A stretch of 64,000 bases of DNA from Embleya scabrispora (GTDB taxonomy: Bacteria > Actinomycetota > Actinomycetes > Streptomycetales > Streptomycetaceae). Both the position numbers and the translations under genes were made by a program. The notes under the pieces were generated by a model that saw nothing but the letters and a program-made list of their open reading frames with translations, had not been told where the DNA came from and ran no database searches. Numbering within the stretch: position 1 is the first letter of the stretch; every line of letters begins with the position of its first letter. The DNA lies in the NCBI RefSeq assembly GCF_002024165.1, contig NZ_MWQN01000001.1, forward strand, positions 2,480,001-2,544,000, given 5' to 3'. Positions 27,488 to 44,217 of the stretch are shown one piece after another.

Positions 27488-28573
27488 CTAGCCGGGTCGG
27501 ATGGCCGCGAGGAACGGCATCGAGTCCAGCGGCGCCTTGGTCACGGTCTTGCCCGGGCGCGGGGCGTGCACGATCGTGCCGTTGCCGAGGTACATGCCCA
27601 CGTGCCGGTTGTCCGAGTAGAAGAACACCAGGTCGCCCGGCTGGAGGGCGCTCTTGGCGATCTTGGGACCGTCGTTGATCTGGGTCCAGGTGGTGCGGCT
27701 GAGCGAGACGTTGGCCGCCTTCCAGGACGCCTGGGTCAACCCCGAGCAGTCGTAGGAGCCGGGGCCCTCGGCGCCGGACACGTACGGCTTGCCGATCTGC
27801 GCCAACGCGAAGTTGATCGCGGCCTGGGCCCGCCCGGAGGCCGGGACGTTGGTCGCCGGGGCGTTGTCCTTGTCCTTGTCCCGGGAGCTGCGGTCGTTGC
27901 CGCGCGTGGTGTCGTTCGCGTGCTCGTCCGAGTTGAGCACGTCCTCGCGCTGCTTCTCGGTGAGCGTGTTGAGCAGCCGCTGCGCCTCGGCGAGCTTGGC
28001 CTGGATGTCGGTCTTGTTCTTGTTCAGGTCGGTGCGCAGCTTCTCCAGTTCCGCGAGCTGCGAGGAGGCCTCGGTGCGGTCCTGCTGGAGAACTCGGGCC
28101 TGCGCCGCGATCTGCTTCAGCTTCGCGGCCTGCTGGCCGTCGAGCTGGGACATCATCTGCGACTTCTGCAGGTAACCCTCGGGGTCGCCGCTGAGCGCGA
28201 GCGAGAGCGACGGCGGGAGGCCGCCGCTGCGGTACTGGTTGGCCGCCAGGACACCGATCTGGTCGCGCAGGGCGTTCAGCGCGGCCTGTTCCTCGGTGAT
28301 CCGGGCCTGGGTCTGGTTCGCGGTGCCCTGCTGCTTCTCGATCTGTTCCTCGACGCCGTTGGCGGCGTCGGTGGCCTTGACCACGTCGCTGTGCAGCTGG
28401 TTGACGCGGTCCTTGGTCTGCTGGAACGACTGCGCGGGGTCCGCGCTCGCGGTGCCGGCGAAGGTCATCACGCCGGTCATCGTCGCGGCGGCGGTGACCA
28501 CGGTCGCGGCGGTACGCACGGCGGTGCGCGGCTTGGGCTTGCGGTGTTGCCCGGGTCGACGTTGGGACGCCAC
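27488..28573 (-). CDS. NlpC/P60 endopeptidase (RipA-like, secreted)
   Basis: 361 residues from GTG 28573. A basic N-terminus and a helix (TVVTAAATMTGVMTFAGTASADP) form a secretion signal with an ASA-D cleavage site. Residues 50-220 are a long coiled coil. The C-terminal NlpC/P60 domain has the catalytic Cys in YDCSGL, His in DNRHVGMYLG and IVHAPRPG. It hydrolyses peptidoglycan stem peptides, in actinomycetes often for growth or sporulation. A c-di-AMP riboswitch lies in its leader. AAGGAG is 11 bases before the start. Confidence 0.95.
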   Translation of the reverse strand: MASQRRPGQHRKPKPRTAVRTAATVVTAAATMTGVMTFAGTASADPAQSFQQTKDRVNQLHSDVVKATDAANGVEEQIEKQQGTANQTQARITEEQAALNALRDQIGVLAANQYRSGGLPPSLSLALSGDPEGYLQKSQMMSQLDGQQAAKLKQIAAQARVLQQDRTEASSQLAELEKLRTDLNKNKTDIQAKLAEAQRLLNTLTEKQREDVLNSDEHANDTTRGNDRSSRDKDKDNAPATNVPASGRAQAAINFALAQIGKPYVSGAEGPGSYDCSGLTQASWKAANVSLSRTTWTQINDGPKIAKSALQPGDLVFFYSDNRHVGMYLGNGTIVHAPRPGKTVTKAPLDSMPFLAAIRPG

Positions 28574-28590
28574 TGGTGGCGGGTCTCCTT

Positions 28591-28760
28591 CCTCGGCCGC
28601 CTACCGGGTTAGCTGACGGGTTCGGGCGGAAGAAGGCGCCCTACGGTGCCGAAGCACCGATTCACCCCAAGGGACTGCGAGGGTCCCCGGTTCCGGCTTC
28701 GCGTCGCGGCGACCATGGTTGCCCACCGTCACCGAAACCCGTCACCGAATTCGGCGGAGG
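28591..28760 (-). promoter_or_regulatory. c-di-AMP (ydaO/yuaA) riboswitch
   Basis: In the leader of the NlpC/P60 gene the minus strand carries the hallmarks of the ydaO class: GGAACCGGGGACC, TTGGGGTGAATC (28659-28670 region), then CCCGAACCCGTCAGCTAACC followed by GGTAGGCGG (28597-28626 region). The closing stem is formed by the flanks 28591-28599 and 28752-28760. Such switches turn off wall-lytic genes when c-di-AMP is high. The 3' end runs into the ribosome site of the gene. Boundaries are approximate. Confidence 0.92.
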
Positions 28761-36122: not shown

Positions 36123-36183
36123 CCGGCGTCGCGCGGGTGACCCCGGCTGGTGCCCGCTCCCGCCGGCGCGGCATACTGCCGCC

Positions 36184-36255
36184 ATGTCCTCGTTCGGCGT
36201 GACGCGCAGCTTTAGCTATGGCACCGGGATCCCCGGCGCCACCGTCACCGCCTGA
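36184..36255 (+). CDS. 23-residue peptide, possible leader peptide ahead of chorismate mutase
   Basis: A short ORF of 24 codons including the stop encodes MSSFGVTRSFSYGTGIPGAT plus VTA. It contains two Phe and one Tyr within the first 12 codons, including TTT and TAT, codons that are rare in this genome. A -10-like CATACT (36172-36177) ends six bases before the ATG, fitting a leaderless transcript. Twenty-two bases after its stop comes a 16-bp hairpin, then the chorismate mutase gene. This resembles a transcription attenuator responding to aromatic amino acids, but no family is known to me and it may be chance. Confidence 0.45.
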   Translation: MSSFGVTRSFSYGTGIPGATVTA

Positions 36256-36277
36256 ACGCGGCACAGCCACAGGCAGA

Positions 36278-36314
36278 CGAAGACGCCCCGGGTCCGGTAC
36301 CCGGGGCGTCTTCG
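36278..36314 (+). terminator. Intrinsic terminator or attenuator hairpin before chorismate mutase
   Basis: Perfect 16-bp stem (36278-36293 with 36299-36314), five-base loop, 48 bases ahead of the chorismate mutase ATG and just behind the 23-residue ORF on the same strand. Confidence 0.8.
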
Positions 36315-36362
36315 CGTTCGTGTCGAGGCCCCGGATCCGACCCCTTCCGGAGAGCAGGCCGC

Positions 36363-36650
36363 ATGGACGACACCACCATCACCCCGCCGCAGACGCCCGA
36401 GGCCGTGATCGACACGGGCCGCGCCCGCATCGACGACCTCGACCGGCGGATCATCGCGCTGATCACCGAGCGGGTGGACATCTCCGTCGAGATCCAGCGG
36501 GTCCGCGTCGCGGCGGGCGGCGCCCGCGTGCAGCTGTCCCGCGAGATGGAGGTCATCGCCCGCTACCGCGAGGGGCTGGGCAAGCCGGGCACCACGGTCG
36601 CGCTGACCCTTCTGGAGTTGTGCCGCGGCCGGGTCGGCCCCCGGGCGTAA
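36363..36650 (+). CDS. Chorismate mutase, AroQ type
   Basis: 95 residues. Converts chorismate to prephenate for Phe and Tyr synthesis. All-helical AroQ fold: ARIDDLDRRIIALITERVDISVEIQRVR with the catalytic Arg and the later VIARYREGLGKPGTTVALTLLELCRG. GGAGAG is eight bases before ATG 36363. The leader region includes the small ORF and hairpin described separately. Confidence 0.93.
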   Translation: MDDTTITPPQTPEAVIDTGRARIDDLDRRIIALITERVDISVEIQRVRVAAGGARVQLSREMEVIARYREGLGKPGTTVALTLLELCRGRVGPRA

Positions 36651-36816
36651 CCTCATCGCGCCGGCGGTCGTTGTGACTGATGGCCGGCCCGCTTCATGCG
36701 CGGGCCGGGCACCGCAAGGCCGCCGACGCGATGAGGCGCGCTCACCAGCGCGCCGTGGGACCTCGCGTTGGTGCCGTGACCGGGACGCAGGGGACAGCAA
36801 CCGGTCACAACCCCGC

Positions 36817-40382: not shown

Positions 40383-42188
40383 TCACCGGGCCTGGAAGGA
40401 CTCCGTCATCTTCTTGAACCGGTCCAGCGAGACCGTGTCCCAGTTGGTCTCGTAGGACGCCACGTACAACGCGTAGTCCCTGTTGCCGTTGGTCACGATG
40501 CCCAGATTGCTCGCGTGACTGGGGATCCGTTTGGTCGTGTCCTCGCCGATCGGGTCGCCCCGCCAGGTGTACTCCCACAGTGCGGCCTTGCGCGCGCCGG
40601 CCGGAACCGGGGTGTAGTCGCGGAGTTGCAGGCGCTCGTACCCGTCCTTCTTCTCCGCGGTCGGCTCGATCCGCGTGAAGTTGCCCTTGGGGTCGTTGCC
40701 GATCTGCGTCAGGCCGATCAGGTAAACCGTCTGGCGGTCCGCCGTCAGGTACTTGATCTGGTCGCCACTCGCGCCGGAGACCGTGCGGGTCGCACCCTTG
40801 GGCAGGAACAGGGAGAACCCGGACGGGTCCTTGACCAGTTCGTAGCCGGCGGGCGGGACCGACCCGTTCGACGCGGAGGCGGACGGTGACGCGGTGGGCG
40901 GAGCGGCGCTCGCCGGCGGCTGGGTCTGCGGCTGCGTGGCCGGCCCGGAGGCGGGCGGATTCGACGTCGCCTTGTCGCCCTTGTCGTCGTCCCGGGTGAC
41001 CAGGAATCCCACCGCGGCGCCGCCCGCGATCAGCGCGACCACCAGTACCACGACCGCGACGATCCGGCCGCGGCGGCGCGGCTCGGGGCTCGGCTGGTGC
41101 GGCGGCGCGGGAGTGTGCGGGATGTGCGGCGGTTGCGGGGGTACGCCGGTGCGGGTCGGCGACGCCTCGGCGGGCGAATACGCCGGTTGCGACCAGGAGT
41201 TCGGCGGCGTGTTGCCGCCCGGATGTCCGGTCGCGCCCGTGTCGTGGCTCGGCTGCGCGTGCCCGTGCGGATCGTACGGCCGAGCCGGGGTGGTCGGCCC
41301 GCCGGGGTCGGCGACCGGGGTCGGCGGCGGCGGGACCGCGCCGTACTGCCGCGACGGCGTCGAGTTCGCCACCTCGCGCAGGATCCGGGCGCCGTCCTCC
41401 ACGCTCATCCGCAGGTCGACGTCCTTGACCAACCAGCCCGCGATCACCGGTTCGAGCCCGCCCGCGTGCCGGGGCGGGTCGGCCTCGTCGTTCAGGATCG
41501 CGTTCAGCGTGCTGATCATGGTGCCCCGGCGGAAGGGGTTGCGTCCCTCGACCGCCATGTACAGCACCACGGCGAGCGACCACAGGTCGGCGGCGAGCAG
41601 CGGGCGTTTGCCCTCGGCCCGCTCCGGCGACAGGAAGTCCGGCGACCCGACCAGCATGCCGGTGGTGGTGAGCGTCGCGGTACCGGTCGCGGTGGCGATC
41701 CCGAAGTCGGTCAGCACCACCCGCCCGTGCGGGGTGACCAGGATGTTCGCGGGTTTGACGTCGCGGTGCAGCACACCCTTCTGATCGGCGGCGATCAGCG
41801 CGTCGAGCACCTTCAGGCCCAGTTCGGCGGCGTCCGCCGGGGTCAGCGTGCCCTGCGTCTCCAGGATCTCGGCAAGCGACTGGGCCTCGACCAGCTCCAT
41901 CACGATCCACGGGATGCCGCCGTCCTCGACGACGTCGTGGATGGTGACCACGTTCGGGTGCCCGATCCGGGCGGCCGTGCGGGCCTCGCGCATCGTGCGC
42001 TCGCGGGCGAGCTCCTTCTCCTCGTCGTCGAGGTGGTCGGGCAGCCGCAGCTCCTTGATCGCGACGTCGCGGTGCAGCATCTCGTCCACGGCACGCCATA
42101 CCGTGCCCATGCCGCCTCGGCCGAGCATGGTGCCCAACCGGTAACGCCCGCCGACCACCCGACCGCGCGTGCCCCCGGTCTGTGCCAC
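40383..42188 (-). CDS. Eukaryotic-type Ser/Thr protein kinase, array member 1
   Basis: 601 residues from GTG 42188, preceded by GGGGAGGG. Kinase domain 15-280: GRGGMGTVW, AIKEL Lys, HRDVKPANIL, DFGIA, SPE and LWSLAVVLY. A 90-residue Pro-rich stretch precedes a single helix (IVAVVVLVVALIAGGAAVGFLV), and then an extracytoplasmic domain of about 150 residues with GFSLFLPKGA and ALWEYTWRGDP. No PASTA repeats. The C-terminal domain recurs in two other members of the array, and I infer that it binds a common ligand. Confidence 0.93.
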   Translation of the reverse strand: MAQTGGTRGRVVGGRYRLGTMLGRGGMGTVWRAVDEMLHRDVAIKELRLPDHLDDEEKELARERTMREARTAARIGHPNVVTIHDVVEDGGIPWIVMELVEAQSLAEILETQGTLTPADAAELGLKVLDALIAADQKGVLHRDVKPANILVTPHGRVVLTDFGIATATGTATLTTTGMLVGSPDFLSPERAEGKRPLLAADLWSLAVVLYMAVEGRNPFRRGTMISTLNAILNDEADPPRHAGGLEPVIAGWLVKDVDLRMSVEDGARILREVANSTPSRQYGAVPPPPTPVADPGGPTTPARPYDPHGHAQPSHDTGATGHPGGNTPPNSWSQPAYSPAEASPTRTGVPPQPPHIPHTPAPPHQPSPEPRRRGRIVAVVVLVVALIAGGAAVGFLVTRDDDKGDKATSNPPASGPATQPQTQPPASAAPPTASPSASASNGSVPPAGYELVKDPSGFSLFLPKGATRTVSGASGDQIKYLTADRQTVYLIGLTQIGNDPKGNFTRIEPTAEKKDGYERLQLRDYTPVPAGARKAALWEYTWRGDPIGEDTTKRIPSHASNLGIVTNGNRDYALYVASYETNWDTVSLDRFKKMTESFQAR

Positions 42189-42422
42189 GTACCCTCCCCG
42201 CATCGGCCGGCTGTCCCGCCGGCCATCTTCGGTCTGCAACCCGCCACATTAGATGCGACGCCCCGGGGTTCGGCGAGCGGATCCGCCGACCGGACCGTTT
42301 CGGGCCCGCCTCTCGCACCGCGTCGGCGGCCCCGCAGGCAGGCCCCGTCGCGCCCGTGACATGGGGTTTTCCGGCCGCGGGCGACCCGCGGTCGATGCTC
42401 GATCGGGTGGCGGCGAATCCGA

Positions 42423-44108
42423 TCAGGTCGGCGTGCCCGCGCGGGTGGGCGGCGGGTCGGTGACCGGCGGGCGGGTGGTCGTGGCGGTCGTCGGCGGCTT
42501 GCTCGTGGTCGGCGGCCTCGTGGTGGGCGGGCGCGTCGTGGGCGGGCGGGTGGTCAACGTCTCCGTGTTCGTCGGCCGCGAGGTGCGGGTCGACCCGGAT
42601 CCCTGGCTGCCAGTGCCCGGGGTGCCGTTGTCGTTGTTCCCGGCGCCGGTCGAGGAGCCGGTGGTGTGCAGCAGGTCGTTGCGGGTCCCGCTCCCGGGCG
42701 GGTTCGCGGCGCCCGAGACGACGGGCCGGGTGTCGGCGACCTTCACGTCGCCCGAGTCGCGACCGCCGCCACCGCCACCGCCCTGCCCGCCCAGCGCGTT
42801 CGGCACGAAGATCGCCAGCGCGGCCACCGCGGCGGCGACCATGGTGCCGAAGACGACGGCCTTGCGGCGCTTCTTCTTCGTGGCGGCGTCGGCCGCGGCC
42901 GACGAGCCGCCGGAGGAGCCGCCGGCCGGGCCGATCAGCACCGGGTTGACCCGGTCGTCGGCGGTGGCCGAGCCGTGCACCGCGTCGGTGGGCGACCAGG
43001 CGTGCGCGCCGGTCGCGGGGTAACCCCCGCCGGGACCGCCCGGATCGGCGGAACTGGCCGCGCCGAACGGCGGCACGGAGGCGGCCGGCGGCTGCCGCCA
43101 GTCCGGCTCGGGCCCGGGCTGCGGCGTCGGTATCGGCGTCGACGGGGTCTGCGGGGTCGGCGGCGGGGCCGGCTGCCAGGACGAGCGGGTGGCACCGCGG
43201 ACGCCGCCCGGGTCCTCGACGGTCGCGGTGCCCGGCGGGATCGGGCCGGCCGCGTTCCACGGGTCCTCGGGAAGCGGCTCGACGTCGACCAGCGCGGCGG
43301 TCAGGAGTCGTTCGGTGGTGTCCTCGTCGGCCCGTTCCAACGGGTCCTTGCGCAGCAGTGCCTCGATGGCCGGCCACAACGCGCCGGACTGCCGGGGCGG
43401 CGCGGGCTCGTCGGTGAGCACCGCGCTGAGCGTGTCCATCGCGCCCGACCGGCGAAACGGCGAGAAACCCTCCACCGCCTGGTACAGGGTCACCCCGAGC
43501 GACCACAGGTCGGAGGCCGGACCGGGCCGACGCCCGAGCACCCGCTCCGGCGCCAGGTATTCGGGCGAGCCGACCAGCATCCCGGTCGCGGTGAGGGTGA
43601 CGGAGCCGGCCACGGTGGCGATGCCGAAGTCGGTCAGCACGATCCGGCCACCGGGCGCCATCAGGATGTTGCTGGGCTTCACGTCGCGGTGCAGGACGTC
43701 GGCCGCGCGGGCGGCGCGCAGCGCGGCGAGCACCGCCAGGCCGACCTCGGCCGCCTCGTGCGGGGCCATCCGGCCCTCGTCGAGCACGTCGGTGAGCGAG
43801 GGCGCGCGGACCAGTTCCATCACGATCCACGGGCGCCCGTCGTCCTCGGCGACGTCGAAGATGGTGACCACGTTCGGGTGGGTGATCCGGGCGGCCGCGC
43901 GGGCCTCGCGCAGTGCCCGCTCGCAGCGCCCCTGGGTCTCCATCTCGTCCAGGTCGTCCGGGATCCGGACCTCCTTGACCGCGACGTCGCGGCGCAGCAG
44001 CTCGTCGAAGGCGAGCCACACCGTGCCCATGCCGCCTCGACCAAGCGGTTCGCCCAGGCGATAGCGCCCGTCCACCAGGCGGCCGTGCGAGCCGCTGTCG
44101 TGTGCCAC
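42423..44108 (-). CDS. Eukaryotic-type Ser/Thr protein kinase, array member 2
   Basis: 561 residues. Kinase domain with GRGGMGTVW, AVKEVR Lys, HRDVKPSNIL, DFGIA and LWSLGVTLY. A membrane helix (AVVFGTMVAAAVAALAIFVPNAL) follows a Pro-rich linker. Unlike its neighbours it lacks a folded C-terminal domain; the tail is Thr/Pro/Asn-rich (TTRPPTTRPPTTRPPTT-type) and may extend through the wall. GTG 44108 has GGGGAGG five bases upstream. In S. coelicolor a corresponding array of kinases is implicated in sporulation and spore-wall synthesis. Confidence 0.93.
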   Translation of the reverse strand: MAHDSGSHGRLVDGRYRLGEPLGRGGMGTVWLAFDELLRRDVAVKEVRIPDDLDEMETQGRCERALREARAAARITHPNVVTIFDVAEDDGRPWIVMELVRAPSLTDVLDEGRMAPHEAAEVGLAVLAALRAARAADVLHRDVKPSNILMAPGGRIVLTDFGIATVAGSVTLTATGMLVGSPEYLAPERVLGRRPGPASDLWSLGVTLYQAVEGFSPFRRSGAMDTLSAVLTDEPAPPRQSGALWPAIEALLRKDPLERADEDTTERLLTAALVDVEPLPEDPWNAAGPIPPGTATVEDPGGVRGATRSSWQPAPPPTPQTPSTPIPTPQPGPEPDWRQPPAASVPPFGAASSADPGGPGGGYPATGAHAWSPTDAVHGSATADDRVNPVLIGPAGGSSGGSSAAADAATKKKRRKAVVFGTMVAAAVAALAIFVPNALGGQGGGGGGGRDSGDVKVADTRPVVSGAANPPGSGTRNDLLHTTGSSTGAGNNDNGTPGTGSQGSGSTRTSRPTNTETLTTRPPTTRPPTTRPPTTSKPPTTATTTRPPVTDPPPTRAGTPT

Positions 44109-44217
44109 GTGGTCCTCCCCAAGACCGTGGACACCACCCGATCCGCCCCGTCGGCGCGTCTTTGGCGTCACGTGTAGGACGTCCGGCGGGTGCCGAAGGT
44201 TCCGTTCCGGGCCGGGC

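Follow-up and report, generated by a model that had tools for sequence, protein, structure and literature searches.

The window, i.e., the whole stretch of 64,000 nucleotides that was analyzed, carries a gene for a monofunctional chorismate mutase (CM) of 95 amino acids at positions 36363-36650 of the forward strand, which is the putative controlled gene of the elements described below. The product matches Pfam CM_2 (E-value = 2.8e-9) and scores above the cut-offs of the NCBIfam models NF005894 (110.6 bits; cut-off, 73) and TIGR01808. It matches only itself in the 10.96-Mb genome, which is that of an Embleya-like member of Streptomycetaceae, at an E-value of 0.001 or less, and it is 94% identical to the CM of Embleya hyalina and 85% identical to a CM of E. 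scabrispora. The gene guaA runs leftward from 36077 and CM runs rightward from 36363; thus, the two are divergent neighbors. CM is probably transcribed alone, because the next frame runs the opposite way. A perfect 9-bp inverted repeat (CCGGCCCGC/GCGGGCCGG) was seen by eye at 36684-36708, shortly past the CM stop codon, and is probably the CM terminator.

On the forward strand between guaA and CM, a -10-like hexamer, CATACT, is recognizable from its sequence at 36172-36177, and a start codon lies 6 nt downstream. This codon opens a leader ORF of 23 codons (36184-36255; peptide MSSFGVTRSFSYGTGIPGATVTA, followed by the stop), whose arrangement recurs within the family Streptomycetaceae. The key codons, as identified by codon counts over 105 leaders, are the Phe codon TTT (codon 10; 36211-36213) and the Tyr codon TAT (codon 12; 36217-36219). 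Hairpin A (strands 1 and 2; 36219-36241), which was found by folding, begins at the Tyr codon and has the form UGGC-A-CCGGG AUC CCCGG-C-GCCA. A small, weak stem, B (GCCUG:CAGGC; 36250-36274), was noted by eye around the stop codon. Twenty-two nucleotides after the stop codon of the leader ORF, a terminator-like hairpin, T (strands 3 and 4; 36278-36314), is supported by folding and covariation; its arms (36278-36293 and 36299-36314) form 16 bp without a mismatch and enclose a 5-nt loop. Because guaA lies in the opposite direction, hairpin T ends no upstream gene. An antiterminator (strands 2 and 3; 36228-36296), in which the loop and 3' arm of A pair with the 5' arm and apex of T, is predicted from the folding of RNA prefixes. 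The likely ribosome binding site of CM, GGAGAG (36349-36354; by eye), is outside the hairpins. The leader as a whole (36184-36362) folds with -93.2 kcal/mol (z = -3.8), and none of 200 shuffled sequences was as stable. The earlier note on this DNA had described a frame with TTC, TTT, and TAT near its start, a -10 box six bases upstream, and a 16-bp hairpin after its stop codon, all ahead of a CM gene. The hexamer with its ATG at 36184, the hairpin, and the identity of the gene are as described there; the 23-codon frame and its three codons are also present, except that only TTC (codon 4) is near the start, while TTT and TAT are in the middle of the frame.

An Rfam search at the locus gave no match at the gathering score, and searches with locus L001 and four relatives (E-value ≤ 5) and with five further loci (E-value ≤ 1) gave only matches far below that score and no T-box. 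A T-box or a riboswitch at this locus was rejected since no Rfam aptamer or T-box matched at the gathering score. Elsewhere in the window, a c-di-AMP riboswitch (RF00379, 85 bits) is located at 28583-28721 on the reverse strand, just ahead of a 361-amino-acid ORF (27488-28573, reverse strand) whose end resembles, by eye, an NlpC/P60 cell-wall hydrolase; such pairs of riboswitch and hydrolase are described for Streptomyces lividans and S. coelicolor in a passage of PMC8079986. Two neighboring frames on the reverse strand (40383-42239 and 42423-44171) resemble, by eye, Ser/Thr protein kinases whose tails are rich in Pro and Thr.

Conservation of the leader and its codons in Streptomycetaceae

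Of 150 Streptomycetaceae genomes that were searched with the CM protein, 110 gave a match. The upstream DNA was read at 112 CM loci (30 from the genome search, two named records, and 80 that were fetched); named duplicates (L032-L037 and L039), non-actinobacterial loci (L041-L044), L005, and some dozen CM places that were weak, split, or at the end of a contig are outside this count. The leader is present at 105 of the 112 loci (96 by script and 9 more by eye among the 16 misses of the script), including those of E. hyalina, E. scabrispora, Yinghuangia seranimata, Actinacidiphila oryziradicis, Streptomyces galbus (L038), S. humicola, and S. daqingensis. Since 105 of 112 loci share it, the arrangement is more than chance. 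Conservation of the ORF, which had been set beforehand as a test in the earlier note, is thus observed within the family, and it extends to eight other families (see below). The seven loci without a leader are four second CM copies (L115, L118, L123, and L124), in whose genomes the first copy does have the leader, and three divergent CMs (L119, L121, and L122).

A covariance model of 104 family leaders (R1) was used to search for the leader in 27 family genomes, comprising 21 without a CM match (of 40 such genomes) and 6 with a weak or split CM. None of the 21 genomes without a CM match has a leader. Only one genome of the 27, G081, gave a strong match (99.8 bits), which is a true leader, and its CM is in two pieces; the other 26 gave no R1 match above 39 bits. 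The DNA of six weak R1 matches (L201-L206; 33-39 bits), from family genomes in which CM is absent or nearly so, was also read and has no leader. The 21 genomes of one genus, g14, comprise 16 without a CM match and 5 with only a weak CM, and the leader is found in none of them.

The 105 leaders start with ATG (103) or GTG (2), and the distance between the end of the -10-like hexamer and the start codon is 6 nt in 60 leaders and 7 nt in 45. The chosen hexamer, of the form xAxxxT, is CATACT in 65 leaders, CATAAT in 14, and another sequence in 26; these figures describe a fit rather than a blind count, as A at position 2 and T at position 6 were conditions of the script, which also picked the best start. 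A -10-like box at 6 to 7 nt from the start codon suggests leaderless initiation. The peptides are 21 to 28 residues long and typically read M...F-x-F-T-Y-G-T-G-W-S-G-C-H-G-R-A, with a nearly invariant core, F-(T/S)-Y-G, and variable residues on the N-terminal side of the aromatic block.

The key Phe position is occupied by Phe in all 105 leaders, with TTT in 102 and TTC in 3, and the key Tyr position by TAT in 100, TAC in 2, and a codon for another residue in 3, e.g., His in E. hyalina (L002/L032). In the seven genes of the window that were counted, TTT accounts for 4 of 85 Phe codons and TAT for 6 of 74 Tyr codons, figures that refer to window genes and are not genome-wide. There is little exchange among aromatic residues at the two key positions, and a second aromatic residue precedes the key Phe by one to three codons in 91 of the 105 leaders. 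Of the two sensors, Phe is kept better, as the key Tyr is missing from 3 of the 105 leaders, in agreement with the AroR leader discussed below. The Trp residue of GTGWSG was considered as a sensor and dropped, since it sits in the loop of hairpin A and is often replaced. Phe and Tyr are thus the conserved residues, which supports the Phe/Tyr attenuation proposed in the earlier note.

In seven of the 105 leaders (L031, L056, L060, L077, L090, L093, and L103), a single base is inserted between the Tyr codon and strand 2, which alters the end of the peptide and leaves the RNA of strand 2 intact. The tolerance of these frameshifts with unchanged RNA argues that the 3' half of the frame is kept as RNA and the aromatic block as codons. 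A different function of the conserved block would be ribosome arrest by the nascent chain, which is the principle of TnaC-like systems: the FTYG chain, e.g., with a bound aromatic compound, would arrest the ribosome, and the hairpins would read the arrest out. The conservation of F-(T/S)-Y-G in both sequence and position, with Phe in 105 and Tyr in 102 of 105 leaders, would fit an arrest peptide, whereas the variable residues on its N-terminal side and the variable length (21 to 28) would not, and the addition of Trp to the block before genes for another enzyme of the pathway (see below) is what a codon sensor would predict. We consider arrest by the peptide very unlikely.

RNA structure and the predicted mechanism of attenuation

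The pairing of hairpins A and T was evaluated in 104 distinct sequences, in which 95.4% of the pair cells are standard and 64 cells are changed on both sides, compared with 15.6 in shuffles (0 of 500 shuffles were as high). When the partner is slid by one to three columns, pairing falls to 32 to 48%; the structure was drawn from the very sequences that were tested, which biases this comparison in its favor. Covariation is concentrated in T: pairing reaches 95.6% in its 15-pair helix, and both sides have changed at 8 of the pairs. The nine pairs of hairpin A are 95% kept, with four pairs that never vary and one that is changed on both sides, and the fold of A has a mean z of -2.8 over 59 distinct sequences. 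MAFFT combined with RNAalifold also recovers A and T; it does not recover the alternative pairing, as expected with overlapping strands. Stem B is GCCUG:CAGGC here and, by eye, GUCUG:CAGAC in many relatives; its candidacy as a strong covarying stem was rejected because the shuffle test gave a mean z of only -0.78, and the stem is considered weak. The run of T residues after hairpin T is weak, with 4 T residues in 12 nt here and a mean of 3.5 over the 105 leaders.

The antiterminator was evaluated in RNA prefixes that were cut before the 3' arm of T and in which 15 to 18 nt from TTT were hidden as a stand-in for a stalled ribosome. With 15 nt hidden, the prefix of L001 takes the antiterminator fold at -31.1 kcal/mol, and in the masked minimum-energy folds of 15 loci at 15 to 18 nt, the loop and 3' arm of A pair with T. 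In all 105 masked prefixes (15 nt), 7 nt or more of T are paired with strand 2, and the mean length of this pairing is 13.4 nt, compared with 10.0 nt when strand 2 is shuffled. On the other hand, 83 of the 105 unmasked prefixes, including that of the window, already take the antiterminator fold, and A is kept in only 22; once the leader is complete, all 105 fold into T. The RNA thus has three forms that compete, but equilibrium folding alone gives no switch between them, and timing and the ribosome would have to decide. The masking of strand 1 as the event that flips the fold was rejected, since these 83 prefixes flip anyway.

Evidence that the antiterminator is under selection is mixed. In the family alignment, covariation of the antiterminator in a fixed register is 0.032, compared with 0.033 in shuffles, i.e., none beyond chance, so that the support from the family is mostly the invariance of GC-rich, palindromic CCGG boxes. 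When the register is free, only 1 of 10,000 permutations of the partners is as good as the true partners in duplex energy (86 distinct pairs), and for the extension of the helix beyond the CCGG boxes, 0 of 10,000 are as good with 61 pairs and 45 of 10,000 when each loop type is represented once (23 pairs); some relatedness is left in by these permutations, and the helix-extension test does not include L104. The loop of A and the apex of T also change together, as AACCCGG:CCGGGTT in Yinghuangia (L006) and, outside Streptomycetaceae, where families are given by number, as GAGTCCGG:CCGGGCTC in f31 and f37, as GGACTCCGG:CCGGAGTCC in f46, and, within f17, as CCGGCCCG:CGGGCCGG versus CGGACCCG:CGGGTCCG (no control was run for these comparisons). 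The longest unbroken helix between strands 2 and 3 is 6 bp in the window and only 5 bp in L046, L101, L116, and L182, and the best match between the two strands sits elsewhere in L164. By these comparisons, the terminator-like hairpin is well supported by covariation and the antiterminator only partly.

Taken together, the leader is most likely an attenuator of the trp/phe type, in which the ribosome governs transcription, and CM would probably be made mainly when Phe and Tyr run short. Transcription would begin at or next to the ATG, and the leader ORF would be translated as a leaderless message. When charged tRNA-Phe and tRNA-Tyr are ample, the ribosome would reach the stop codon, on or near strand 2, hairpin A could re-form behind it, and T (strands 3 and 4) would end transcription before CM. 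With uncharged tRNA-Phe, and probably also with uncharged tRNA-Tyr, the ribosome would pause on UUU-NNN-UAU and cover strand 1. With UUU in its A site, the ribosome would extend about 12 nt further, so that strand 1 would be hidden and strand 2 would be free. Strand 2 and the loop of A would then pair with the 5' arm of T, T could not form in time, and CM would be transcribed.

Some of the same observations would also suit a passive hairpin, i.e., an mRNA-stabilizing or processing element or a terminator of stray transcription, preceded by an upstream ORF that is translated from a leaderless start and has no regulatory role. Its poor U-tract and the lack of a switch in equilibrium folding are compatible with such an element, and leaderless starts are common, constituting 17% of the S. 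lividans transcripts according to a passage of PMC8079986. The choice of codons, the conservation of strand 2 irrespective of frame, and the ability of this strand to pair with T would be left unexplained, however, and T has no upstream gene to end because guaA runs the other way; we regard this explanation as very unlikely. The dyad TATGGCA..CCGG..TGCCATGG could also serve as a DNA operator, located just past the promoter, to which a regulator of the aromatic pathway binds, with the ORF being incidental. It is a near-perfect palindrome soon after the predicted transcript start and is little changed within Streptomycetaceae; however, the sequence of the palindrome differs in other families and still starts at the Tyr codon, its loop changes together with the apex of the terminator in several of them, and the rare Phe and Tyr codons and the added Trp codons have no explanation in an operator, which makes an operator very unlikely.

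Related leaders in other families and comparison with known attenuators

R1 was also applied to 394 genomes from the class, and 40 non-family or secondary matches were read, among which were 7 CM leaders and 20 leaders of 3-deoxy-7-phosphoheptulonate (DAHP) synthase. Twelve R1 matches, often lone terminators, were judged by eye to be false (L168, L181, L184, L186, L189-L191, and L194-L198), and one (L172) is the antisense of a true leader. The 7 CM leaders are from f31, f35, f37, f46, and f48 (e.g., MTSAATRFFYGYRPPVAVAAV). The aromatic block is doubled (YFYGTGFFYEK) in the CM leader L166 of f31. All of the 20 other leaders precede DAHP synthase in f17 (L162, L163, L165, L167, L170, L171, L173, L175-L180, L183, L185, L187, L188, L192, L193, and L199). 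These leaders are of the FYG/FWYG type with a nearly fixed CTGCGCTGA end, and most of them have Phe, Trp, and Tyr codons. The f17 leader probably attenuates the aromatic pathway as a whole.

A second model (R2), which was made from those 20 DAHP synthase leaders only and applied to the same 394 genomes at an E-value of ≤ 1e-5, matched 39 f17 genomes, 29 Streptomycetaceae genomes at their CM leaders, and one other genome, G236, whose match (L237) was judged false. R2 finds the family CM leaders and R1 finds those of f17; thus, the two sets detect each other, to which shared GC-rich terminators may contribute, with R2 taking only one other terminator at its threshold. A CM profile search of 51 hand-picked non-family genomes, in which f31, f35, f37, f46, and f48 were chosen partly for their R1 matches, gave CM in 13 genomes at 14 places; an FYG or FYQG leader precedes 12 of the 14, which adds f4, f18, and f21. 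FYG-type leaders before CM are therefore found in eight families besides Streptomycetaceae, and the leader family appears wider than could be seen from the window alone. The leaders of f4, f18, and f21 were scored without terminators, and 30 CM loci each were read in f4 (61 genomes searched) and f18 (35 genomes searched). An FYG or FYQG leader is present at 26 of the 30 loci in f18, with 23 of 30 passing the start/-10 score. In f4, an FYG leader is present at only 5 of 30 (L248, L261, L263, L267, and L268), which indicates that the device is dispensable. One further locus, L282, was flagged as a leader by the script and rejected by eye.

DAHP synthase supplies Phe, Tyr, and Trp, and CM supplies only Phe and Tyr. 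Trp is present in the aromatic block at 37 of 38 f17 DAHP synthase loci (38 loci from 36 genomes, L227 being the same as L243 and L230 the same as L244; G386, G442, and G502 of the 39 genomes are not among them) but in only 4 of the 105 CM leaders from Streptomycetaceae; this contrast is between one family and one family, with few independent events, and its Fisher value should not be taken at face value. At least two f4 CM leaders run against the rule, as L261 and L263 hold Trp near the block (SWRFFYG and LWRFFYG). With these exceptions, codon content appears to follow the target gene. We lean slightly toward the broader interpretation that a single old regulatory leader, an "FYG element," is widespread in the class Actinomycetes and has come to stand before genes for different steps in aromatic synthesis. 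The CM version would read Phe and Tyr, the DAHP synthase version of one large family would have been retuned with Trp codons so as to read all three amino acids, and UUU/UAU, rare in the genes of the window, would be the near-fixed sensor in Streptomycetaceae.

A survey of Actinobacteria by Seliverstov and coworkers in 2005 reported elements at trp, ilv, leu, cys, and ileS, and, according to its conclusion, it found no conserved control by RNA ahead of the operons for Phe or Tyr (PMC1262725). A literature search found no report of the present leader, subscription papers and supplements being outside its scope. The claim in the earlier note that such a leader is not known for this gene therefore agrees with our search as far as the present leader is concerned and needs qualification for CM activity in general, since E. 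coli pheA has the PheL attenuator according to a passage of PMC11802643. The predicted mechanism is an ordinary one that is well supported by comparison, and none was found described at CM in this phylum. If it operates as predicted, it fills the gap at the Phe/Tyr branch point that the 2005 survey left in Streptomyces and its relatives, and the leaders would allow sensor codons, RNA pairing, and target genes to be compared across a natural series. The aromatic amino acids of Streptomyces feed many antibiotics, and the leader would, if the prediction is true, be a defined control site that engineers could remove.

PheL of the enterobacteria is a Shine-Dalgarno-led leader with a run of many Phe codons, whereas the leaders described here are predicted to be leaderless and usually hold two or three aromatic codons, as F-x-F-T-Y. 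As outlined in PMC11802643, PheL is likewise a Phe leader before a gene with CM activity, pheA, and is regulated by charged tRNA-Phe; unlike the monofunctional CM here, PheA is a bifunctional CM-prephenate dehydratase. Like the present leader with its predicted terminator, the TrpL attenuators of Streptomyces have a short ORF with codons for the product, a GC-rich terminator, and overlapping complementary boxes (passages of PMC1262725 and PMC8079986), and TrpL of S. lividans is leaderless (PMC8079986), as is predicted here. They differ in their Trp codons, in their targets (trpE and trpS), and in the poly-U that follows the trp terminators in the account of PMC1262725, which is poor here. Table 4 of the S. 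lividans reannotation (PMC8079986) gives eight leader peptides found by 5'-end mapping (alaS, ilvBHC, thrS, trpS, leuS, leuA, trpE, and metN), none of which belongs to CM or to Phe/Tyr; they are the same kind of object as the CM leader. AroR before aroF in Corynebacterium glutamicum (reported by Neshat et al. in 2014 and summarized in PMC11802643 and PMC7356990) is also an actinobacterial leader peptide, with Phe-Tyr-Phe, and limitation of Phe, but not of Tyr, acts on it (PMC11802643). It controls the DAHP synthase AroF and not CM, and the likeness is one of description rather than of sequence. Nevertheless, in both systems, a ribosome stalled under Phe limitation raises, or is here proposed to raise, the transcription of an aromatic-pathway gene, and AroR thus appears to be the nearest relative of the CM leader in function.
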